DNA of 35,064 nt from NCBI GenBank assembly GCA_012523365.1, contig JAAYIQ010000126.1, positions 1-35,064 on the forward strand, written 5' to 3'. Position numbers and translations under genes: made by a program. Below the pieces are notes generated by a model, which did no database searches, was not told the DNA's origin, and saw nothing but the letters and a program-made list of their open reading frames with translations. Positions 1 through 13,500 of this stretch are shown in pieces; the stretch's first letter is position 1, and each line of letters begins with the position of its first letter. The stretch is from Clostridiaceae bacterium (GTDB taxonomy: Bacteria; Bacillota; Clostridia; Saccharofermentanales; Saccharofermentanaceae).

Positions 1-1506
1 GTCATAGTCATCACCGTCATAGTCGGATCTTCTGCTGATCATCAATGCTACTACCGCAGCGACCAGAGCGATTGCGATCAAACAAACCAAATAGAATATG
101 ATGGTGAAAGGATTTCGAAAATCCTTCAGATTCTGAAGAATCGATTTTGTTTCTGCAGTCTGTGCTTCGGATTCCGTCGGCACCAAAGATTCGCTCACGC
201 TCATCGACGGCTGAGAATCTGTCGGTTCGACCGAGGGAGTCGGGGACGGAGTCGGTTCAACGAGAACCGTCTTACCCCGATAAGGCATGAATGATTGATC
301 GAGAGTATCGTAAAGATAAAAGACCTCTTCAGCCTGAGCATTCATCAGAAGCATCAATATCTGTGGATTTGCAGGATCGCTGATCAACCGATAAGCGGTA
401 ACGGTTTCTCCATCGTGCGTGAAATCAAATGTTTCATACCCGTAAGGAATCTGATTCGCATCCGCCGCATCCAATACCCTTAACGAAGTCTCCGGTTGAC
501 TGATGAAAAGCAGAGGATAAACAGATTGACGACTTTGATCATATACAAACAATCGAATTTGCTCATCCGTAAGCAGTTGAACCAGCAGGATTTGGTCGGT
601 CGACCCGGCTTGAGCAAGTCCTTTGAATACCGGTATTTCCACCCCTTTATAGGTTGCGGTGGAAGTACTGAAGCCATCGGGGATGTCAGTATCCTCGTCA
701 ATCGGAACGATCATCCATTCCTGATTGAGATACTCCATTAAAGGAAGCGGCTGAGGAGTCGGTGTCGGCGACCCGGTCGGTCCGGTTGCCCGTGTGACCT
801 TGACGGAGTATACTTTCGACGTTCCGTCCTCCGCTTTTACGGTGATTTTAATCGTATTGACGCCCGGTTTGATATTGTTCTGAACACCATTGAGTGTAAC
901 CTTAGCCTTGCTGTGCTCCGCAACGGCAGTAACCGTCACCTTCGATACATCCTCCGCGACATCCATTGAATATGAAGTACGGGACGAAGAGAAGCTTGGG
1001 TTCAGCGTACCGGGAGACACCTTAAGGGAGGATAAATTCGCATTACCGGATAACGGGACCGGAGTTTTAATCGAGATTGATCTGGATGCGCTTGTGTAAT
1101 TAGCATCGACTTCAAAATCTGATAAAGAGATGGTCGTATCTCCTGCTGCCTTACAGGTAAATTTCGCGGAAACAATCGTGCTTCCGGTCGGAATGCTCGC
1201 TCCGGCGCATGAAAATGTACCCATCGAAATGCTCGAATACCAGTTATAGCTCGAATAATTACTGGATATTGACGTCAACGTCAATAAATTGGAATTATAG
1301 ACAAAGCCTCCCGAAAAACCGCTATACGGTCCATCGGTCCCGGACACCTTTATTGATACCGTAATCGTCTTGCCGACCTCCGCGGTTCCGCTAACGGACA
1401 TTGCAGCCGCTGCGGCGGCACGAACTGACGAAACAGGTATCCAAGTTATCAAAATCATTAACGTGAGTATCATCGCTACTGCGGATCGAAATTTCTTAAT
1501 TCTCAT
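1..1506 (-). CDS. Cohesin-like domain protein with cadherin-like beta-sandwich domain, Pro/Thr-rich linkers and C-terminal transmembrane segment (3' end truncated by window edge)
   Basis: My minus-strand translation from ATG at 1504-1506 is open to position 1. It reads MRIKKFRSAVAMILTLMILITWIPVSSVRA (signal peptide), AAAAMSVSGTAEVGKTITVSIKVSGTDGPYSGFSGGFVYNSNLLTLTSISS (cohesin-like Ig fold), LSSLKVSPGTLNPSFSSSRTSYSMDVAEDVSKVTVTAVAEHSKAKVTLNG (cadherin-like beta-sandwich), GPTGSPTPTPQP linker, ...NPFTIIFYLVCLIAIALVAAVVALMISRRSDYDGDDYD (TM plus acidic tail). It is missing from the ORF track because it has no stop in the window. Confidence 0.8.
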   Translation of the reverse strand, partial: MRIKKFRSAVAMILTLMILITWIPVSSVRAAAAAAMSVSGTAEVGKTITVSIKVSGTDGPYSGFSGGFVYNSNLLTLTSISSNYSSYNWYSSISMGTFSCAGASIPTGSTIVSAKFTCKAAGDTTISLSDFEVDANYTSASRSISIKTPVPLSGNANLSSLKVSPGTLNPSFSSSRTSYSMDVAEDVSKVTVTAVAEHSKAKVTLNGVQNNIKPGVNTIKITVKAEDGTSKVYSVKVTRATGPTGSPTPTPQPLPLMEYLNQEWMIVPIDEDTDIPDGFSTSTATYKGVEIPVFKGLAQAGSTDQILLVQLLTDEQIRLFVYDQSRQSVYPLLFISQPETSLRVLDAADANQIPYGYETFDFTHDGETVTAYRLISDPANPQILMLLMNAQAEEVFYLYDTLDQSFMPYRGKTVLVEPTPSPTPSVEPTDSQPSMSVSESLVPTESEAQTAETKSILQNLKDFRNPFTIIFYLVCLIAIALVAAVVALMISRRSDYDGDDYD

Positions 1507-1513
1507 TCTGTCC

Positions 1514-3673
1514 TCACTGCGGTAGTAATTGTTCCTTTAAAATATGTCGGGCAATCATTGTCATGTCCATGCTGTTCAGTTTTCCGCTCTTATCAACATC
1601 AGCGGCCAGAAATTCGATTCCGGAAATCAAGTTCTCCTTGATAATATGCCGTGCCGTAATCGTCATATCATAAGAATTAATGCGGCCGTCTCCGTTTACA
1701 TCGCCGAAAAGTATAACATAATACAAATTCACAGCTTCATTCTCGGCATTATACACCACAAGACGGTCGCCGGTTCGCATGATTCGTGTCATATCGGTGA
1801 CTTTTTGATTGAGACGGTCCTGCACCTCAGCTCGAGCTCCCTCCGCCAATGTCAATCCGCTTAAAAAGGTCTCTACCGTCATTTTTTCAGCGATTCCGGA
1901 TAAATACTGGTTAATGAGAGTGTAATCAGACGTAAATAAAGGTTCAACCCCTTGCTCAAGGCGAACAATGTTGATCGTATATGTCCGGACATCCCCGTTC
2001 TGAGCCGTACAGGTGATAACAACCTGATTCGTACCGACAAGAAGCGGAACGTTGCCGGTACGCACCAAAGGCAGTTCCGAATTCACCGCGTTCCATGAAA
2101 TTCCTGTCAGCGACGAGTATACAGATGCTTTTGTAACCGAGAAATTGACCGATTCAATCCCATAACCGACAACCAGGTCATATTCGAATATATTCGGGTC
2201 AAATGACGGAGTAATTGCCTGATCCGTAATGGATAACTCCGTCACCCAATTGTTGGGGTTCCCCTTCAACGCAGGAGGAGGGACGTTGGTTTCCGGCATA
2301 TTATTAAATACCGGAATCGAGAACAACAGCGGCAGATTCGTCAGGTCCTTATATGCTTCCTTTAACCGGATCGCTTCCGATATGGGAGCCTGAGTACTCG
2401 TCATATACTGATGACTATACAGACCGTCGGCATTATCGATCAGATCGAATCTTTGCAAATAAAGTGTATCTTGTCCGCGAGAAATATAACCACTGGCAAT
2501 CCACTCCGCTCCACCGACGATTGCCTTATATTGAGAGGTCCACGGGCGATTGAAATTATAAACAGGATTTTCGTTGGTGCTTGACGCATAAATCAGTGCC
2601 GGTCGAATCGGATCCGGGTTTGAAACAGCCCCAATATTGTAAAAGTTGTAATATCCTTTAAATCCGGGGTATGTTCCCGAGGCCGTATCTGCGGGCTGTC
2701 CGTTCGATTTCAGAATCTCCTGTTTGATCCTGGTTGTCAGGAAGTAAGGATTGATTTGATGGTTTTCCGCCGCATCCATGATTGCCTGGGCATAAGTAAT
2801 ATCTGCGTTGAGGTCGTTCTTGATGATTCCGGACTTCATAAAGGAATTGTCCGGTGACGACAGCATCGACTGAACGGTCTCCAGTGTTTGTGTGATCGGG
2901 TCATACGAAAGTTTGAAAAACTGAAAAATTTGAGTATCCGACAAGAAGTTTCTCGGATCAACCGAGTATGCGACATACCCTCTTGAAGTTTTTACCCATC
3001 TTGATGCGTCATACGAGATATACGTATCAGTCAGCCAATTGTACGCATCGTATTTTAATCCCAGGTTACTCGGATTTACGTATGGCTCCCAACCCGGCAA
3101 TGTCGCATCGTTTCTGGTATAAGTGGACTGCCATGCGTCGTTGACATAACTCTCAATCAGACTTCGTGGATTTGTACTGCTCTCATTGGCCTCCATCGAG
3201 ATAACCGTCTCATAATCGAGATTCGTCATGAACGGGGCAAATACCCAGTTCGGATATTTCTTGTGCAGTGCACGCAGAGAAGTCTTATAGGATTCCGGGA
3301 AACCGGATATCGACAATTCAAAAGAGGATTCCGGATCGATCGGATCCGGCGAGTCAAGGAGAAGATATTCAGACCAAATGAAGCCTACCCTCTCAACTCC
3401 GTCCAAGTCGGTCGCTTTGATCGGGTACCATGTATCTGAAACTAATGGTCCGGTGATCTGTACACGATGTCCGCAATAAAGAACGGCGACGATCGAGGAA
3501 CCTGTCGTCGCGGACGCACGTACGTTAACATAACTTCCGGACACGGTGGCATTTGCAAGCACTTCGGCCCGAACCGGACCCGTAGGAAAAAGGCATACAA
3601 CAATGAAGAATGATAATATTACACATATCATTCTCGAAATCGCAACGGACACATTTGCGCATCCGCCGTTCAC
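1514..3673 (-). CDS. Secreted SH3-domain / glucosaminidase (GH73/LytG-like) / cadherin-like beta-sandwich protein with C-terminal type I dockerin
   Basis: 719 aa ORF. Signal peptide; SH3-like region (VNVRASATTGSSIVAVLYCGHRVQITG); glucosaminidase core (YAQAIMDAAENHQINPYFLTTRIKQEI...FYNIGAVS...NFNRPWTSQYKAIVGGAEWIASGYI); two dockerin Ca-loops (DVNGDGRINSYD, DVDKSGKLNSMD), each followed by an ARHI(I/L)KE helix. Start at 3673 is GTG; see finding on an alternative start. Confidence 0.88.
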   Translation of the reverse strand: MNGGCANVSVAISRMICVILSFFIVVCLFPTGPVRAEVLANATVSGSYVNVRASATTGSSIVAVLYCGHRVQITGPLVSDTWYPIKATDLDGVERVGFIWSEYLLLDSPDPIDPESSFELSISGFPESYKTSLRALHKKYPNWVFAPFMTNLDYETVISMEANESSTNPRSLIESYVNDAWQSTYTRNDATLPGWEPYVNPSNLGLKYDAYNWLTDTYISYDASRWVKTSRGYVAYSVDPRNFLSDTQIFQFFKLSYDPITQTLETVQSMLSSPDNSFMKSGIIKNDLNADITYAQAIMDAAENHQINPYFLTTRIKQEILKSNGQPADTASGTYPGFKGYYNFYNIGAVSNPDPIRPALIYASSTNENPVYNFNRPWTSQYKAIVGGAEWIASGYISRGQDTLYLQRFDLIDNADGLYSHQYMTSTQAPISEAIRLKEAYKDLTNLPLLFSIPVFNNMPETNVPPPALKGNPNNWVTELSITDQAITPSFDPNIFEYDLVVGYGIESVNFSVTKASVYSSLTGISWNAVNSELPLVRTGNVPLLVGTNQVVITCTAQNGDVRTYTINIVRLEQGVEPLFTSDYTLINQYLSGIAEKMTVETFLSGLTLAEGARAEVQDRLNQKVTDMTRIMRTGDRLVVYNAENEAVNLYYVILFGDVNGDGRINSYDMTITARHIIKENLISGIEFLAADVDKSGKLNSMDMTMIARHILKEQLLPQ

Positions 3674-3961
3674 GCGATGTGGCTTGCTCCTGCTGTTTCC
3701 AATTCGATAAAAAATAATCTATTCCTCCGTCAAAATACGGAACATAAAATACGACATATACATTCTAGCAAAATCATTTAACAACTCCATTACAAAAGCG
3801 TATCACAGTTTCTGTATTTTAGAATACTTCCGTCAACTCATGATTATATCCGAAAAACCGCAAATGATAAACCCCGTGCGGATATTGTCCGTCAAAATCA
3901 AATATGTTTCAGTTCATCGTTTTTCCGAAAACATGCCTTCCGAAGCATTATTTAAAAAACA

Positions 3962-3993
3962 AAATCCCTTCGGGCGGATACCCGAAGGGATTT
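3962..3993 (-). terminator. Rho-independent terminator downstream of tRNA cluster
   Basis: Perfect 13-bp inverted repeat AAATCCCTTCGGG-CGGATA-CCCGAAGGGATTT followed on the minus strand by a T-rich run (TTTTGTTTTTTAAAT). Confidence 0.85.
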
Positions 3994-4068
3994 GGTGGCT
4001 CACCGGAGGTTCGAACTCCGGACCCCCTGATTAAAAGTCAGGTGCTCTACCAACTGAGCTAGTGAACC
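3993..4068 (-). tRNA. tRNA-Lys (anticodon UUU)
   Basis: Minus-strand GGTTCACTAGCTCAGTTGGTAGAGCACCTGACTTTTAATCAGG...GGAGTTCGAACCTCCGGTGAGCCACCA; acceptor stem pairs, CCA encoded, anticodon TTT. Confidence 0.95.
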
Positions 4069-4071
4069 GTT

Positions 4072-4146
4072 TGGCTGGGGTGGCAGGATTTGAACCTACG
4101 CATGCGGGAGTCAAAGTCCCGTGCCTTACCGCTTGGCTACACCCCA
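4072..4146 (-). tRNA. tRNA-Gln (anticodon UUG)
   Basis: Minus-strand TGGGGTGTAGCCAAGCGGTAAGGCACGGGACTTTGACTCCCG...GGTTCAAATCCTGCCACCCCAGCCA; anticodon TTG, CCA encoded. Confidence 0.95.
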
Positions 4147-4195
4147 TCGGATGCGAGAATTCAAGAATCGAGCCTGCCCCATCGGAAGGGAAAGT

Positions 4196-4273
4196 TGGGG
4201 TGGGATATGGGATTCGAACCCACGATATCTAGTGCCACAAACTAGCGCTCTAACCAGCTGAACTAATCCCACC
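4196..4273 (-). tRNA. tRNA-His (anticodon GUG)
   Basis: Minus-strand GGTGGGATTAGTTCAGCTGGTTAGAGCGCTAGTTTGTGGCACTAG...GGGTTCGAATCCCATATCCCACCCCA; anticodon GTG, extra 5' G (G-1) opposite C73, CCA encoded. Confidence 0.95.
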
Positions 4274-4333
4274 GTGTTGTGCCGATTGAAGGCACGAATG
4301 AAATTATATGTTTGGACGCCGGAAATGTCAACA

Positions 4334-5743
4334 TTAACCGTTCCCGAAAGAAAGTCCCTTACGCTTCATCACGGCTCGAGCTGCATGTACTCCGCTCGCT
4401 CCGGCTTGAGAAAGCCCGCGTGTAATGCCTGCTCCGTCCCCGATCGCGAAGAAATTCGGGATCATTGTCTCAAGCTCGTTCGTTAAACTGATCCGCGCAC
4501 TGTAGAACTTAACCTCAACCCCATACAGAAGCGTGTCCTGATTGGCGGTACCGGGTGCAAGTCTGTCCAAAACCTGCATCATCTCGATAATATTATCCAG
4601 ATGCCGTTTGGGTAAAACCAGCGACAAATCACCGGGAGTCGCGTTGAGCGTAGGCTTAACAAAGCCCTGCGGCAAACGGTGTGCGTTTGTCCTTCTGCCA
4701 TCCATGAGGTCGCCGAAACGCTGAACCATGATCCCTCCGCCGAGCATATTTGAAAGCGAAGCGATGCGTTTCCCGTATTGATACGGCTCATTAAAGGGGG
4801 TCGTAAACCGATTGCTGACAAGAAGCGCAAAATTCGTATTCTCACTTCTCATCGCCGGGTCCGTGTAACTGTGTCCGTTGGCCGTTATAATGCCGTCCGT
4901 ATTCTCTGTGACCACGTATCCGTAGGGATTCATGCAGAATGTACGAACGACATCCTTGTAACGGGAAGTACGATACAGGAGTTTCGCCTCATACATCGCG
5001 TCGGTGATCTCCTTGAAAACAATTGCGGGCAGTTCAACACGCAGACCGAGATCTACTTGATTGTTGATCATGACCAATTTCAACTTCTGACATTGTTTCG
5101 CAAACCATTCAGCTCCCGACCGACCCGGAGCCGCGATCAAGTAATCACATCGGATCGTTCCCCTGGCGGAGGCAAGCTCAAATCCTCCCTCCGCAGTTAC
5201 GGAGATATCATCAACGCGTGTCTCACACATAATCTCGAGCCGCTCACCCAACCATTCATATTGCGCCGCGAGGAGGTCTCGATTCCGCTCCGTTCCGAGA
5301 TGCTTGCACTTGGCATCCATCAGATGCAGATCCAGCGCGATCGCCTTGCGACGAATCACGTTCGCCTCAGGTGTATCCGTCGAGAAAATATCAGTAGTCG
5401 CCCCGAAAAGCATATTGACGCTGTCAACATACTCAATCAGTTTCATCAAATCCTTGTCCGAGACGTATTCATTGAGCCACCCGCCGAACTGCGTTGTAAA
5501 ATTGAATTTTCCGTCCGAAAAGGCTCCGGCTCCGCCGAATCCGCGCATGATCGCACACGGACTGCATCCGATACAGCTGTCGACCGCTCCTTTAATAATT
5601 GGACAGGATCTCTTGGAAACCGGCTGTCCCTGTTCGATCAGAACGACCTTCAATCCGGGATCGGAGATCAACAATTCATACGCCGCGAATATTCCGGCGA
5701 TACCCGCTCCGATAATGGCGACATCATATCTTTCCTGGCTCAT
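4334..5743 (-). CDS. FAD-dependent dehydrogenase / NAD(FAD)-utilizing oxidoreductase
   Basis: 469 aa, N-terminal Rossmann GAGIAGIFAAYEL, CIGCSPCAIMRGFGGAGAFSDGKFN motif, C-terminal FAIGDGAGITRGLSQAGASGVHAAR. Confidence 0.85.
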   Translation of the reverse strand: MSQERYDVAIIGAGIAGIFAAYELLISDPGLKVVLIEQGQPVSKRSCPIIKGAVDSCIGCSPCAIMRGFGGAGAFSDGKFNFTTQFGGWLNEYVSDKDLMKLIEYVDSVNMLFGATTDIFSTDTPEANVIRRKAIALDLHLMDAKCKHLGTERNRDLLAAQYEWLGERLEIMCETRVDDISVTAEGGFELASARGTIRCDYLIAAPGRSGAEWFAKQCQKLKLVMINNQVDLGLRVELPAIVFKEITDAMYEAKLLYRTSRYKDVVRTFCMNPYGYVVTENTDGIITANGHSYTDPAMRSENTNFALLVSNRFTTPFNEPYQYGKRIASLSNMLGGGIMVQRFGDLMDGRRTNAHRLPQGFVKPTLNATPGDLSLVLPKRHLDNIIEMMQVLDRLAPGTANQDTLLYGVEVKFYSARISLTNELETMIPNFFAIGDGAGITRGLSQAGASGVHAARAVMKRKGLSFGNG

Positions 5744-6696
5744 CCTTGTACTCCGTTCATCTCTGTCTGCCCGATTTCTTCCGCCTGTTGAACCGAAGGA
5801 TTCATAATAACTCCAATTTCCGCTTTACGGCGATTATAAACCTCCAAATACGCCGCTCTTTGATAAGGAAACACCCACAACTGAAGAATAAACAGCGTTA
5901 ACGCACTCAATATATACCAGCCGATAAAGGACAGATCCAAAACAAACAGATCCATCTTCATCCCACGGGTCATTTGTTTGCTCAGATCGATCGCAGCCTT
6001 TGCCGGCATATCGGTCCGCTCGGCCAAAATAAACTCCGTGAAGAGATACGCATACTTACGATTGAGCAAAACGGCACCGACCGCGACGCCGGCGACGATC
6101 ACATATATCAGAATAACAACCAACCAAACGATCGTGCGCCGAAATATATCCGTTCCGACATCGAATAAATCGTTATGGTTGCTCTGAATACCGAAGCCGG
6201 AAAATGCACTGATGATCATAACACCAAATATGATAACGGTTGGGACGACTACAACCATCGAGACACCCAAGCTCCATATCATCATCCATAGTTGTTTCCA
6301 AGCCGTTCCGGACACTACTCCGCTGAACCGCCCTTCTCGAAAAGCCCAGAACAAACTTCTGACACCGCTTCCGATATCATTCGATTTCTGTTTCACCGAA
6401 CCCAAATATCGGTTGTATCCGACAAACATGGGGTTGAACATCAAAAAAGCGAGAATGAGTTGCGCAAAGCCAATGATCGATGATACGCCGGTCATAAGCG
6501 AAGAAAACGCAATCAACTCCCCAAAACCGATGAACCTCCTCTGAACGGAAACATTCATGATCGTATTCAACCCGTAGCTGATCGACGGAAGCAAGGAAAC
6601 GATCGCTAAGTAAATAAAAGTAACAAGAACCACCGGCCAGAGCGATAATTGGATCCGGCTTCGAGCCGCTTGGCGAATTTCGGAACAAGTCCACAT
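5740..6696 (-). CDS. DUF975-like integral membrane protein
   Basis: 318 aa with several hydrophobic helices; pattern RSRIQLSLWPVV...FMFNPMFVGYNRY...FLDLSFIGWYIL...VFPYQRAAYLEVYNR resembles DUF975 proteins. 4-nt overlap with the next gene. Confidence 0.65.
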   Translation of the reverse strand: MWTCSEIRQAARSRIQLSLWPVVLVTFIYLAIVSLLPSISYGLNTIMNVSVQRRFIGFGELIAFSSLMTGVSSIIGFAQLILAFLMFNPMFVGYNRYLGSVKQKSNDIGSGVRSLFWAFREGRFSGVVSGTAWKQLWMMIWSLGVSMVVVVPTVIIFGVMIISAFSGFGIQSNHNDLFDVGTDIFRRTIVWLVVILIYVIVAGVAVGAVLLNRKYAYLFTEFILAERTDMPAKAAIDLSKQMTRGMKMDLFVLDLSFIGWYILSALTLFILQLWVFPYQRAAYLEVYNRRKAEIGVIMNPSVQQAEEIGQTEMNGVQG

Positions 6697-6780
6697 GGTA
6701 TTCTCCTTGTTTTCATTCTCAGGCTTCTTGATTATATCGTATTTTCGGTCGATAGGAATGAATAATCACGACAAATGGTG

Positions 6781-6786
6781 TATAAT
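6781..6786 (+). promoter_or_regulatory. Candidate -10 element (TATAAT) upstream of argJ
   Basis: Perfect TATAAT 35 nt before the ATG at 6821; no convincing -35 at 17 nt spacing. Confidence 0.35.
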
Positions 6787-6820
6787 ACGCATTCGTTCAG
6801 TACTTTTTCGAGAGGGAAAT

Positions 6821-8029
6821 ATGAGAAAACAAATTTCTTACATCACGATGCCGAAAGGTTTTCTGGCCGCCGGTGTTCATTGCGGAATGAAAAAGGACGG
6901 CAAGCCCGACCTTGCATTAGTCGTTTCGGAGTGTTCTGCATCCGTTGCGGGCGTATACACCCAAAATCTTATACAGGGACACTCCTTACAGCGCACCCGC
7001 CGGCTTGTATCGGAGTTTGGGACGTGCCGCGGCATTCTGATCAACAGTGTCAGCGCGAATGCCTGTATCGGTCCGCAGGGGTACGAGGATGCGGAACTTA
7101 CGGCCGCAGAAGCCGCCCGAGTGATTGGTGTTCGGCCGGAAGAGATCCTCACCTGCTCGACCGGCGTGATCGGGAAGCGTCTCTCCGTCGAGAAAATGAA
7201 GAAGGGCATCACCGAGCTCGGTAGAACCCTGTCCGCTTCTGAAGAAGCGGCACACTCCGCTATGAGAGCTATCATGACGACGGATCTCGTCCCCAAAGAA
7301 ACTTCGGCCGTTATTGAAATCAACGGACATACCGTCACAATATCCGGCATGGCAAAAGGATCCGGGATGATCCATCCGGATTTGGCGACACTGATCGGAA
7401 TCATCACAACGGATGCCGCCATTGACTCCTCTTCACTGGATATGCTGTTGCGTGAGGCGGTCAAACACACGATCAACCGGGTATCCGTCGACGGAGACAC
7501 ATCTGTATGCGATACGATCCTGATGGTCGCCAACGGGATGTCCGGACAGGAAGTCAAACAGGGAACGGATGAATATGCACTTTTCGCACAAGCTCTTCAA
7601 GATATTGCGCGGGATCTCGCTCAAATGATCGCCGCCGATGGTGAAGGTGCAACAAAACTGATCGAAGTCCGGGTCGAGGATGCTCCGAGCGAGGATGACG
7701 CACTCATGATCGTTCGAAGCATCTGCCGTTCGCCTTTGTGCAAGACGGCAATTTTCGGCGAGGACGCGAACTGGGGGCGAATATTGACTGCCGCCGGTTA
7801 TTCCGGAGCGAACTTTGATCCGGAACGGACGGACATCTTTTTCGGGGATTTACAAGTATGCAAGGGCGGATGCGCAGTCGATTTTGACGAGGATGAGGCA
7901 AAGCGAATCCTTTCTCAGAAATGCGTACTGATACGCGTCAACTTGGGGTCCGGCGTTTTTTCGGACAGAATGTGGACTTGCGATTTTTCTTATGATTATG
8001 TCAAAATCAATGGAAGCTATCGCTCTTAG
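6821..8029 (+). CDS. argJ: Bifunctional glutamate N-acetyltransferase / ornithine acetyltransferase ArgJ
   Basis: MRKQISYITMPKGFLAAGVHCGMKKDGKPDLALVVS...; ArgJ autocleavage motif GEGATKLIEV; ...AIFGEDANWGRILTAAGYSG. ORF track begins at 6695, but ATG 6821 has a GAGAGGG-type RBS and matches ArgJ N-termini. Confidence 0.93.
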   Translation: MRKQISYITMPKGFLAAGVHCGMKKDGKPDLALVVSECSASVAGVYTQNLIQGHSLQRTRRLVSEFGTCRGILINSVSANACIGPQGYEDAELTAAEAARVIGVRPEEILTCSTGVIGKRLSVEKMKKGITELGRTLSASEEAAHSAMRAIMTTDLVPKETSAVIEINGHTVTISGMAKGSGMIHPDLATLIGIITTDAAIDSSSLDMLLREAVKHTINRVSVDGDTSVCDTILMVANGMSGQEVKQGTDEYALFAQALQDIARDLAQMIAADGEGATKLIEVRVEDAPSEDDALMIVRSICRSPLCKTAIFGEDANWGRILTAAGYSGANFDPERTDIFFGDLQVCKGGCAVDFDEDEAKRILSQKCVLIRVNLGSGVFSDRMWTCDFSYDYVKINGSYRS

Positions 8030-8050
8030 CCAACACTTAAATCCAAGAAA

Positions 8051-8083
8051 AAAGCCCGGCGAGTTAAGTTCTCGACGGGCTTT
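8051..8083. terminator. Bidirectional terminator between convergent argJ and clpE-like gene
   Basis: AAAGCCCGGCGAG-TTAAGTT-CTCGACGGGCTTT, 13-bp arms with one mismatch, A-run on the left and T-rich on the right. Confidence 0.8.
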
Positions 8084-8106
8084 CTTATCTTCCAAAGGAA
8101 AATCGG

Positions 8107-10578
8107 TTATGATGTTTCTTCTCGCTCCTTAAGTTCAAACGTATACTTCTCACCATCGTGGCCGATTTGTATCTCGCAGACATGATCGAGTTTCGATGTG
8201 AGGAACATATCCGATAACGGATCCTCCAGACGACGCTGGATTGTCTTGCGAAGAGGCCTGGCACCGTATTTCACGTCATAACCCTCCTCAGCGAGGGCGT
8301 CTTTTGCCTTCTCGGAAACGAGAAGGGTTATGTGTTTCTCCTCCATTTGAGCCGAGAGTTCACGGAGCATCAGATCGACAATCTTACGGATCTCTTCCTT
8401 GGTCAGTTCGTGGAACACGATAATCTCATCGACGCGGTTCAAGAATTCCGGACGGAACATATCCTTAAGCACCGTTTGAACCCGGCTCTCCATCGCAACA
8501 TGACCTTCGGAGCCGAACCCGAAACCGTTGGACTTCAATGTGGTCCCGGCATTAGAGGTCATGACCAGGATGGTGTTTTCAAAATTAATCAATCGACCGT
8601 GGCTGTCCGTCAGTCGTCCGTCATCGAGAATTTGGAGCAATAGATTAAAGACATCGGGATGAGCCTTCTCGATCTCGTCGAAAAGAATGACCGAATACGG
8701 CTTGCGTCGAACACGCTCCGTCAACTGACCTCCGTCATCGTAACCGACATAGCCGGGCGGTGATCCGATCAATTTGCTGACGGTGTGAGCCTCCATGAAC
8801 TCAGACATATCCATGCGGATCAGCGCATCCTCGCGTGCGAACATCGCTTCCGCGACGGCCTTGACCAATTCGGTTTTTCCGACTCCGGTCGGTCCCACAA
8901 AGATAAACGAGGCCGGTTTGTGTTTCTTGCCGAATCCGGAACGATTCCGACGGATTGCACGCGCCAAGGCACTTACCGCATCTTCCTGACCGACGACACG
9001 CATATGCAGACGGTCTTCAAGCTTCATCAGCTTTTCCGATTCCGTTTCCGAAATACGTTTGACCGGTATACCGGTCCACATCTCAATGACCGATGAGATA
9101 TCCTCATGCGATATGATTGTCGGGACCAGCTCGCTTTCCAACGACGCCGACTCCTCCTCCAAACGTAAGAGCTGAGCCTTAGTCTCCGCCTGTTTCTCAT
9201 AAAGGCCTTCCTGCTCGATGATTTGGGGGGCAGATGCCTCGATTTTCTGTTCAATCTCCGTTAGGAGCTTCTGTTTCTCCGCTGTCTCTTTAGCCAACGA
9301 CTTTAGTTTGACCAAGCGCACCTCGCGCAGATTCGCTCTGGATCCGGACTCATCAAGCAAGTCGATCGCTTTGTCCGGAAGAAAACGATCCATGATGTAG
9401 CGTGCGGACGCCCGGACAGCATATTCAATCACTTCATCAGAATATGACACATGGTGGTGCTTCTCGTAATAGTCGCGGATGCCCTTAAGGATCTCAATAC
9501 TCTCCTCGACGCTCGGTTCCTCGACGATCACCTTCTGGAAACGGCGTTCGAGGGCGGAATCCTTCTCAATAAAGCGACGATACTCATCCAGAGTTGTCGA
9601 ACCGATCACGCGAATTTCACCTTTGGCCAATGCGGGCTTCAGAATGTTCGCCGCGTTCATTGCGCCTTCGGCATCTCCGGCACCCATGATATTGTGAAGT
9701 TCATCGATAACTAAAATGATATTCTCGCTCTTTCTCGCGTCATCGACAACACCCTTCATCCGGCTCTCAAATTGGCCGCGAAACTGCGTCCCCGCAACCA
9801 TCGCAGTCATGTCAAGAAGATAAACCGACATATCCAGAAGCTTCGCGGGAACCTGACCCGCAGCAATGCGGACCGCAAGTCCTTCGGCAATTGCCGTCTT
9901 CCCGACTCCCGGCGCGCCGAGTATAGCGGGATTATTCTTTGATCGGCGGTTCAAGATCTGAATCACACGCTCCAATTCCTTCTCGCGTCCGATAATTCTG
10001 TCGATCTTGCCTTCCCGGGCCTTCAGAGTAAGGTTGGTACCGAACTGGTCCAGGAATCTCAGTTTGGGCTCTCTTCTTCGTTCTCCGGTTCTGCGGGGTC
10101 CGGTTTCTCCGGCATCCGCCTTCTTATCCCCTCCGGGCATACCGTCCGAGGAATCTTCCGCGGCTTCGTCAGTGATTGCTTCATCACTCATGTCAAAGGC
10201 ACCGCCGAGGTCCTGATTCCCGATCTCAAGAAAACCGAGATCGGAGCTCTGCGGATCCTCTTCATCTTCGTCCTGAAACTCCTCATCTCCGTCAATCAGA
10301 TCATTCTCCGGAAGGAGGTTCTCCGAATTAAGAAGCATCTTGAAGATGTCCTCGGGCTGAGTCCCTTCGACACCGGTCATCAGGTTGTTGAGCCGATCGG
10401 ACACCCGATCAATATTCTTCTCATTGATTCCGGACTTGGCAAACATCTCGTCGATGCCTCCGATTCCGGTCTGATAAGCGCACTTCAGGCACAGCCCTTC
10501 GCTGATGCGACGACCATTCTCAATGCGTGTCGTAAAAACCACGGCAACGTTCTTTTTGCAGATTATGCATTTTGTCAT
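8107..10578 (-). CDS. ATP-dependent Clp protease ATP-binding subunit, ClpE-like (N-terminal zinc finger, two AAA+ modules)
   Basis: 823 aa; [15 protein letters not shown]...[19 protein letters not shown] zinc finger; Walker [16 protein letters not shown] and [19 protein letters not shown]; Walker B LVIDELH and [32 protein letters not shown]. Confidence 0.92.
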
Positions 10579-13500
10579 TTATTTGTCCTTTGTCTCTCTT
10601 CCGACTTTTCTTCTTCGGGGCTTGACCGACGTTTGAATCTCGAGGAGATCCCTGTCGACCTCTGCTTTGAATTTTAGTGTATCCACCTCATGAAGGGGCC
10701 CGAAATTACGGGCCTTTTCCAGAAGCGGGGCCAGATACTGTCCGGTATATGATGTGGGGTGGTTCGCGACCTCTTCCGGAGTACCGGATGCGACAACGGT
10801 TCCACCCTTGTCCCCTCCCTCCGGGCCTAGATCAATTATATAATCGGCCGTCTTAATGACGTCGAGATTGTGTTCGATTACCAAAACAGTATTACCATTT
10901 TCGGTCAGTCTCTGCAAAATGTCAACAAGCTTATGAACATCGGCAATGTGAAGACCGGTCGTCGGTTCGTCCAGAATATAAAAGGTACGCCCGGTGCTCC
11001 TTTTCGATAATTCGGTTGCCAGCTTGACGCGCTGAGCTTCTCCGCCCGACAGTTGAGTAGAGGGTTGTCCCAAACGAATATAACCCATCCCGACGTCCGC
11101 GAGAGTCTCCAGTTTTCTTCTGATCCTCGGGATGCTCGAAAAGAAGCTAAGCGCCTCATCGACCGTCATCTCCAGAACATCCGCGATGCTCTTGCCTTTG
11201 TACTTCACTTCCAGCGTTTCGCGGTTATAGCGTTTTCCCTTACAGACATCACACGTTACATATACGTCCGGCAAAAAATGCATCTCGATTCGATTGACTC
11301 CATCGCCACCGCAAGCCTCACAACGACCGCCTTTGACGTTGAAACTGAATCGCCCTTTGAGGAAACCCCGTGCCCTCGCGTCCCGGCTTCCCGCGAAAAG
11401 ATCACGGATTAAGTCAAAGCATCCCGTGTATGTCGCCGGGTTGGATCTGGGCGTCCTGCCGATCGGAGACTGGTCGATCGCAATGACCTTGTCCAAGTAT
11501 TCAAGTCCTTCCATGGAGTCAAACGAGCCGAACTGGCGTTTCGCTCCGTTGAGGTCCGCGGCTAATTTCTTAAGGATAATTCCGTTAACCAGAGAACTCT
11601 TGCCCGAACCGGAAACGCCGGTCACACATGTCATGAGTCCAAGCGGAATCCGGACACTGATTTCACGCAAATTGTTCTCCCTCGCATTATTGACGGACAG
11701 ATAATGACCGTTCGGGCGTCTGCGATTCAGCGGGATCGGAATATATTTCTTGCCGCTCATGTATTGTCCGGTGATCGAACGTTCCGCATTCATGATGTCA
11801 CTGATCGAACCGATCGCGATTAATTCCCCGCCGTGTTCTCCCGCTCCGGGGCCCAAGTCGATCACGCAATCCGCTTCACGCATGGTTTCCTCGTCGTGTT
11901 CAACTACGAGTACCGTATTTCCCAGATCGCGAAGTCGCTTCAGCGTACGAAGAAGTTTGGCATTATCACGTTGGTGGAGTCCGATCGACGGTTCATCAAG
12001 AATATAGAGAACCCCCATCAATCCCGAACCGATCTGTGTCGCAAGGCGAATCCTCTGGGACTCGCCGCCGGACAACGTCGCGGAGGCGCGGCTCAGTGAA
12101 AGGTAATCGAGGCCGACATCCAAAAGGAACCCGAGGCGAGAGCGTATTTCTTTGATGATCGGTTCCGCAATCGAATGATTTCTCTCCGAAAAAACCAGGT
12201 TATCGAGTACTTTGAGGCACTTCCGGATCGGAAGACAGGTCAGCTCATATATGTTATAGTCACCGACGGTCACCGACAAGCTTCTCTTGTTTAATCTGGC
12301 TCCGCCGCATGAAGGGCACGGATGAATGTTCATAAATTGCTCGTAATATTCCTTCATATCCTCCGACCCGGTCTCCCGATACCTTCGTTCCAGGCTCGGG
12401 ACAATGCCCTGCCAACTTGACCGGTACTCGGCACCACGGGAATATTTGCTGTTCCTCGTATCGATTTGAAGAACCTCACCGTCGTTTCCGAAAAGGATGA
12501 GATCGCGAATCCCTTGAGACAAATCTTTCCAGGGAACGTCGAGCGAAAACGAGTATTTCTTGGAAAGAGCGAGGATGAACGCGCGGCCCCAGCTGCTGTC
12601 GTCGTCCATGTTCCATCCCCCGGTTCGGATCGCGCCCTCGTTGATCGATTTATCCGGATCCGTAACACAAAGCAGGGGATCCACAAATGAGTGCGAACCG
12701 ATCCCCGAACAATCCGGACAAGCTCCGAACGGATTATTAAAGGAAAACATTCTCGGGTTGAGTTCTTCAAACCCGATCCCGCAATCCGGACACGAGTACT
12801 TCTGCGAGAACAGGAGCTCCTCTTCCTTATAAATGACATCGCCAAACTCATTCTCGTCCTCGGGAATCTGGATCGAGACCCGAAGCAGACCGTCCGATAC
12901 CGCTACCGTACTTTCCACCGAATCCCCGAGTCGTCCTTGGATATCCCGGCGAATAATTACGCGGTCAACGACCACTTCGATCGAATGTTTCTTGTTCTTA
13001 TCAAGGACGATGTCCTCATCCAGCTCAAACATCTCCCCGTCCACGCGAATTCGAGCGTATCCCGCCTTGCGCAATTCCTCAAAAAGCTTCGCGTACTCAC
13101 CCTTCCTGCCCCGGACGACCGGGGCCATCAGAACCGCCCGTGTCCCCTCCGGATACTTGAGCAATGTATCGACGATTTGATCGACGGATTGAGAACTGAT
13201 TTCCTTTCCGCACTCAGGGCAATGCGGTGTTCCGACTCGCGCATATAACAGTCTGAGATAATCGTAAATCTCGGTGACGGTTCCTACCGTCGATCGCGGA
13301 TTCTTGCTCGTTGTCTTCTGATCGATGGAGATGGCGGGAGAAAGTCCGTCGATCCGGTCGATATCCGGCTTCTCCATCTGACCGAGAAACTGACGTGCGT
13401 AGGAGGAAAGAGATTCCACGTAACGACGCTGTCCCTCGGCATAAATCGTGTCGAAAGCCAGAGATGATTTCCCGGAGCCCGAGAGGCCCGTCAGAACAAC

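Follow-up and report, generated by a model that had tools for sequence, protein, structure and literature searches.

A stretch of 35,064 nucleotides from a Clostridiaceae bacterium carries at its start two adjacent genes that probably form a docking unit for a cell-wall enzyme. The window analysed here is this one whole contig (JAAYIQ010000126.1 of assembly GCA_012523365.1, handled below as G000:C56), part of a 2.0-Mb draft genome that is 94.7% complete. On its minus strand, the open reading frame (ORF) list places a hydrolase gene at 3673..1514 and then a partner gene at 1506..1, separated by a gap of 7 nt (1507-1513). The hydrolase carries a dockerin and the partner a cohesin, two domains known as the clip of plant-degrading complexes, the cellulosomes. 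As the initial annotation had described, the genes lie 7 nt apart on the minus strand, and their immediate surroundings are tRNAs and housekeeping genes. An AGGAG-like ribosome site lies upstream of the hydrolase start. The pair is preceded by a terminator-like hairpin 3' of the tRNA cluster (3993-3962) and by a promoter-like site, each a consensus match only, which suggests that it may be a two-gene transcription unit of its own. The features are as follows.

1514..3673, minus strand: predicted secreted SagB-like N-acetylglucosaminidase with C-terminal dockerin (719 aa, GTG start)
3566..3673, minus strand: hydrolase signal peptide (residues 1-36, approximate; from sequence, with a hydrophobic helix at 6-28 in the model)
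3362..3532, minus strand: SH3_3 domain (residues 48-104; Pfam PF08239, E 1.6e-7)
2291..3331, minus strand: SagB-like GH73-type glucosaminidase core (about residues 115-461; profile, fold and alignment)
1961..2239, minus strand: hydrolase cadherin-like beta-sandwich (residues 479-571; PF12733, E 6.5e-11, second search 1.7e-12)
1709..1954, minus strand: X module (residues 574-655; conserved immediately N-terminal to the dockerin, from xdoc profile matches and sequences)
1538..1705, minus strand: type I dockerin (residues 657-712; PF00404, E 2.4e-13, and repeat symmetry)
1..1506, minus strand: membrane-anchored cohesin protein (502 aa visible, ATG start, no stop; 3' end cut by the contig end)
1414..1506, minus strand: partner signal peptide (residues 1-31, approximate; from sequence, with a helix at 2-22 in the model)
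1066..1413, minus strand: cohesin domain (residues 32-147; AlphaFold2 pLDDT about 90 or above for most)
790..1035, minus strand: partner cadherin-like domain (residues 158-239; PF12733, E 2.5e-15)
262..744, minus strand: two related ~75-aa beta-rich repeats (..IPxGF....YxG......YD...; conserved, no Pfam family)
142..255, minus strand: Thr/Pro-rich linker (low model confidence)
19..111, minus strand: transmembrane helix (residues 466-496, C-terminus inside)
3843..3870, minus strand: promoter-like site TTATCA-16-TATAAT upstream of the pair (consensus match only, 10/12)

The first gene encodes a putative glucosaminidase acting on peptidoglycan. Its domains follow the order SH3, catalytic, cadherin-like, X module and two-loop dockerin, and the SH3 and cadherin-like domains first called from the letters are both seen by Pfam. 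The glucosaminidase call also held: NCBIfam assigns the catalytic part as SagB-like, a PDB profile search ranks 6u0o_B and 6fxp best (E ~1e-23), and a fold search places SagB-SpdC 6u0o_B nearest (E 2e-11), though Pfam PF01832 gives no match to the catalytic domain. The core contains E319 (nt 2717-2719) and a YNFYNIGA motif. E319, N343, N346, G348 and A349 are invariant among 18 aligned homologues, and in the alignment E319 falls on the ALxETG Glu of SagB and Autolysin E. By sequence profile and by fold, SagB and other glucosaminidases of staphylococci come closest to the catalytic domain, whose catalytic Glu is intact.

The hydrolase ends in a dockerin with symmetric repeats. Its loops, DVNGDGRINSYD and DVDKSGKLNSMD, lie 34 residues apart and are both canonical, bearing out the earlier call, and the domain scores 50.5 bits against a PF00404 cut-off of 22.9, with the two duplicated EF-hand-like calcium loops and F-helices that this family describes. 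The recognition pairs in the two repeats are SY and SM. Across 64 distinct dockerins, recognition positions 10/11 reach 73% identity between repeats of one protein versus 18% between proteins, a statistic that related rows inflate, and none of 5000 shuffles was as high. The calcium ligands are similar throughout (84% and 74%). A dual-mode cohesin binder is predicted to have repeats that match within a protein yet change between species, and the observed pattern fits. The X module precedes not only this dockerin but also those of NlpC/P60, SpoIID and carboxypeptidase proteins; together, X module and dockerin weakly match the CipA X-dockerin 2b59_B in the PDB profile search (E 0.0016).

The second gene encodes a membrane protein whose Ig domain is, by modelled fold and by family, a diverged cohesin and a putative dockerin binder. 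A Pfam search of the single protein gave no cohesin match, and in a PF00963 search of the genome the window cohesin reached 17.5 bits, under the cut-off of 24.1. PF00963 is matched by 17 of 31 homologous partners (E <= 0.1, best 1.7e-9). Searched against the PDB, the partner-family profile finds cohesins best, with 3l8q first (4e-9), then 4ums, then 7urp under another molecule name, and later C. perfringens NagJ. Foldseek with the AlphaFold2 model of residues 32-147 placed the C. perfringens cohesins 2w1n, 2vo8 (TMt 0.73) and 2jh2 at the top together with CaCohA2, and model and PDB profile agree on a cohesin beta-sandwich. Through its relatives, the family profile and the model, the domain that the initial annotation had called cohesin-like both matches and folds as a cohesin. 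That annotation had also proposed a C-terminal transmembrane helix with an acidic cytoplasmic tail; the helix is there, and the tail is truncated after ~6 residues because the contig ends, so that its acidic, low-complexity stretch of roughly 150-220 residues is seen only in complete relatives. The pair of ~75-aa beta-repeats between the cohesin/cadherin part and the membrane helix is common to partners across Clostridia.

The pair is well supported as a conserved module. We read neighbouring genes in relatives and in the best 80 of 577 homologues in GTDB genomes, the 80 being chosen for their likeness to a dockerin-containing query. Removal of duplicates left 110 distinct hydrolases, 81 of which have a dockerin and room downstream. 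A gene for a cohesin protein with a transmembrane helix directly follows 76 of these 81 (median gap 15 nt, 70 within 60 nt), as counted with a partner profile built from the same families and over rows that are not phylogenetically independent. The pair occurs in Lachnospiraceae (Roseburia, Lachnospira, Tyzzerella), in Oscillospiraceae and in metagenome-assembled genomes labelled Bacilli. The five hydrolases lacking the partner (L077, L083, L084, L113 and L131), from Oscillospiraceae or unclassified Clostridia, have shorter tails and no evident X module. In an even draw of the class, the hydrolase profile at E <= 1e-20 is found in 58 of 293 genomes and 37 of 181 genera. At one locus (L044 in G070, 7523-11325, minus strand), a dockerin-bearing glucosaminidase has a transmembrane partner with a different beta-sandwich replacing the cohesin. 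No natural dockerin-cohesin fusion of the pair was seen.

The genome around the window holds few such domains, all genome-wide statements resting on profile searches. A single cohesin is detectable in it, along with two dockerins that both sit on peptidoglycan hydrolases; no further cohesin was found by Pfam or the partner profile except in a paralogue on contig C121. Many dedicated scaffoldins, which would have made the adjacency unspecific, had been a concern, and no scaffoldin array exists: neither of the marks of a cellulosome, a multi-cohesin scaffoldin and many dockerin-bearing plant-polysaccharide enzymes, was found in this genome. The second dockerin protein (L037 on G000:C181, 5768-8750, minus strand) has two Big_2 domains, an X module, the dockerin and a C-terminal NlpC/P60 domain, and is a presumed peptidoglycan endopeptidase. 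The gene after it encodes a transmembrane protein with an N-terminal beta-rich domain that is not recognisably a cohesin. Order-level relatives repeat this economy. A dockerin occurs in 50 of 78, exactly one in 43, and in 40 of those 43 it sits in the ORF of a SagB-like glucosaminidase, as judged by comparing dockerin and glucosaminidase coordinates by hand. Two of the remaining three (G047 and G071; the third is G056) have a dockerin fragment at a contig end, directly before a cohesin gene, and the G071 fragment starts within a PT-repeat, as expected of an assembly break.

We conclude that the two genes probably encode a one-enzyme cohesin-dockerin docking unit that holds the glucosaminidase at the membrane; the tethering first proposed for them is supported by a deeply conserved adjacency, and the binding itself is inferred. 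In this mechanism, the glucosaminidase would be secreted, and its C-terminal X-dockerin would dock, probably in a calcium-dependent way, onto the one cohesin of the next gene's product, itself held in the cytoplasmic membrane by its C-terminal helix. The cadherin-like, repeat and Thr/Pro regions would serve as a stalk. Tethering would keep the enzyme near the membrane, at the place where new glycan strands appear; there it would trim or release them, by analogy with SagB and SpdC in Staphylococcus aureus. The cytoplasmic tail may connect this site to internal machinery, and the unit may be regulated.

Similar pairs carry other wall enzymes as cargo. In a Lachnospiraceae locus (L130, 5407-11065, plus strand), genes for a glucosaminidase-dockerin protein, a D,D-carboxypeptidase-dockerin protein and a cohesin protein with a transmembrane helix stand in a row; the carboxypeptidase matches Peptidase_S11 (E 3e-41), and its dockerin is nearly identical to that of the adjacent glucosaminidase. 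In another family (L207, L208 and L209), a SpoIID-SH3-X-dockerin protein precedes a cohesin-transmembrane gene, and the L207 cohesin passes Pfam. These three loci also have a further cohesin-like transmembrane gene nearby, beyond one opposite-strand gene. At L214, what looks from sequence like a glucosaminidase of another type is encoded by an X-dockerin gene followed by a cohesin gene. At the L212 locus (6019-6933, minus strand), a gene for a cohesin, two cadherin-like domains and a transmembrane helix has immediately upstream of it the gene for a 304-aa protein that combines a cohesin-like N-terminus with an X-dockerin of its own; the 304-aa protein is a possible adaptor.

Several observations weigh against this reading. 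Cohesin neighbours also accompany X-dockerin cargo unrelated to the wall, namely a transglutaminase-like surface protein (L210) and an apparent subtilase (L233; G068:C99, 4523-7384, plus strand, X-dockerin gene first and cohesin gene next). With cohesin neighbours beside such varied proteins, the pairing rule is general, wall enzymes being the main and not the sole cargo seen. Co-evolution of dockerin and cohesin distance matrices was dropped as evidence: their partial correlation of 0.49 is not specific, because a control part of the partner scores nearly as high (0.42). A further objection comes from hydrolases without a dockerin, which keep the downstream cohesin-like transmembrane gene in 19 distinct cases (a frameshifted Roseburia counted) and are scattered over several distinct groups in the tree of catalytic domains; among their genomes that were checked on this point, most have zero Pfam dockerins. 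Because the cohesin gene stays in these lineages, the partner probably has a dockerin-independent role or an undetected ligand. A partner that works mainly as a stalk-like cofactor or regulator in the manner of SpdC, touching the catalytic part, with dockerin-cohesin contact as an optional reinforcement, would account for this retention, seen in the genome's own C121 paralogue (L038), in Anaerocolumna, in Mobilitalea and in others across several separate lineages. We consider it unlikely: the dockerin recognition residues stay symmetric wherever a dockerin is present, and cohesin-transmembrane genes also adjoin unrelated enzymes such as SpoIID, where the common part is the X-dockerin and not the catalytic core. 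The dockerin-less hydrolases have long N-termini (median 513 aa versus 133 aa), and those read carry several SH3 repeats or else, like the C121 paralogue, a membrane anchor. It looks as if one means of holding the enzyme had been exchanged for another, and this favours a holding role for the dockerin; the association has a raw p of 8e-11 and is non-significant on the tree, where about 4 independent contrasts give a sign-test p of 0.25.

Two further explanations fare worse. Since many bacterial Ig-like folds look alike and the window domain falls under the Pfam cut-off, the neighbour's domain could be an ordinary Ig-like stalk, the dockerin binding a cohesin on another protein or cell for surface assembly or adhesion. 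This is improbable given that the genome, its C121 paralogue excepted, has no further cohesin by Pfam or partner profile, that the relatives' domains pass Pfam and that the adjacency is strict. The pair might instead be a degenerate cellulosome remnant in a lineage that gave up plant-polysaccharide use, as cohesins and dockerins are best known from cellulosomes and the X-dockerin dyad weakly resembles that of CipA. We rejected this origin as scarcely credible: there is one cohesin with wall enzymes as cargo, the genome yielded no multi-cohesin scaffoldin or dockerin-bearing enzyme for plant polysaccharides, relatives with a single dockerin leave no room for one, the wall-enzyme pairing recurs across families, and the recognition residues are maintained.

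Some dockerin-less loci merit separate description. The C121 paralogue (G000:C121:5000-14000, 1273-5399, plus strand) is a dockerin-less glucosaminidase with an N-terminal membrane helix. It is followed by a protein with signal peptide, cohesin-like domain, cadherin-like domain and transmembrane helix, then by GtrA-like and folC-like genes and later a threonine-synthase-like gene; in order-level relatives, the dockerin form stands in this gene order. In genus g2, 16 of 18 genomes are without a dockerin, and in most of these only the dockerin-less, paralogue-type glucosaminidase was found. Roseburia inulinivorans DSM 16841 (L089, 5545-7902, plus strand) has a frameshift inside the glucosaminidase dockerin, possibly a draft-sequence error, next to an intact partner gene. 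On the tree it was set apart from the dockerin-less class as an artefact, as were two hydrolases at contig ends (L011 and L052) and one whose end is not clear (L129).

The cohesin-dockerin clip thereby gains a probable second use. Cellulosomes aside, gut and rumen Clostridia probably also use it widely to hold wall-remodelling enzymes at their own membrane. We regard as evenly balanced the broader proposal of a general envelope docking system of Clostridia, in which tailed membrane cohesins would recruit glucosaminidase, SpoIID lytic transglycosylase, D,D-carboxypeptidase and NlpC/P60 X-dockerin enzymes to membrane-proximal sites of peptidoglycan processing; this would explain many non-cellulolytic Clostridia with few dockerins and no cohesins. 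Here the dockerin's partner would be the product of the next gene, its cohesin often too diverged for Pfam. If binding is confirmed, many non-cellulolytic gut and rumen Clostridia place wall hydrolases at the membrane by this clip, which would make many natural and possibly orthogonal cohesin-dockerin pairs available and give access to the control of glycan strand length and strand release in these bacteria. Searches of titles, abstracts and passages in the open-access literature, which leave out subscription papers, found no description of the pair, and priority is not certain. Related remarks appear in passages of PMC6118326, PMC11557425 and PMC3573020.

The pair can be compared with several known systems. 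It shares with type I cellulosomal pairs the cohesin fold and a two-loop dockerin with symmetric recognition residues. Unlike them, it has a single cohesin and one or few dockerins, lacks plant-polysaccharide cargo and has no CBM or SLH; its cargo would cut the cell's own wall, its anchor lies in the membrane and its genes are adjacent. Proteins with one cohesin have precedents: the single-cohesin anchoring protein ScaE of R. flavefaciens (PMC2930009), and single-cohesin proteins with transmembrane anchors and unclear partners (PMC11557425). In Ruminococcus flavefaciens, RflaF_05439 likewise joins a presumed peptidoglycan peptidase fold (NlpC/P60) to an X-dockerin, but its partner is the cellulosomal anchor ScaE, in a cellulosome system of very large size (PMC3573020), unlike the pair here. 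The closest cohesin structures (2w1n, 2vo8, 2jh2) come from the C. perfringens NagJ/GH84C X82 cohesin glycoside hydrolases, which also use the domains pairwise outside cellulosomes; in that species the enzymes themselves carry the cohesins and act on host glycans, whereas in the present pair a membrane anchor bears the cohesin and the enzyme would be a wall hydrolase. SagB-SpdC of S. aureus offers the closest catalytic domain in fold and sequence, and likewise a glucosaminidase at the membrane with a membrane partner, an arrangement proposed here. SpdC, a member of the CAAX protease family, is integral to the membrane, whereas the proposed anchor is a cohesin protein with a single transmembrane helix and the enzyme is secreted; the adjacent partner is not SpdC-like, and no search aimed at SpdC was made. 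The SagB-SpdC complex severs nascent glycan from the lipid that anchors it in the membrane and determines how long the strands are (PMC12272431). By analogy, a SagB-like enzyme held at the membrane would be suited to this task in Clostridia.

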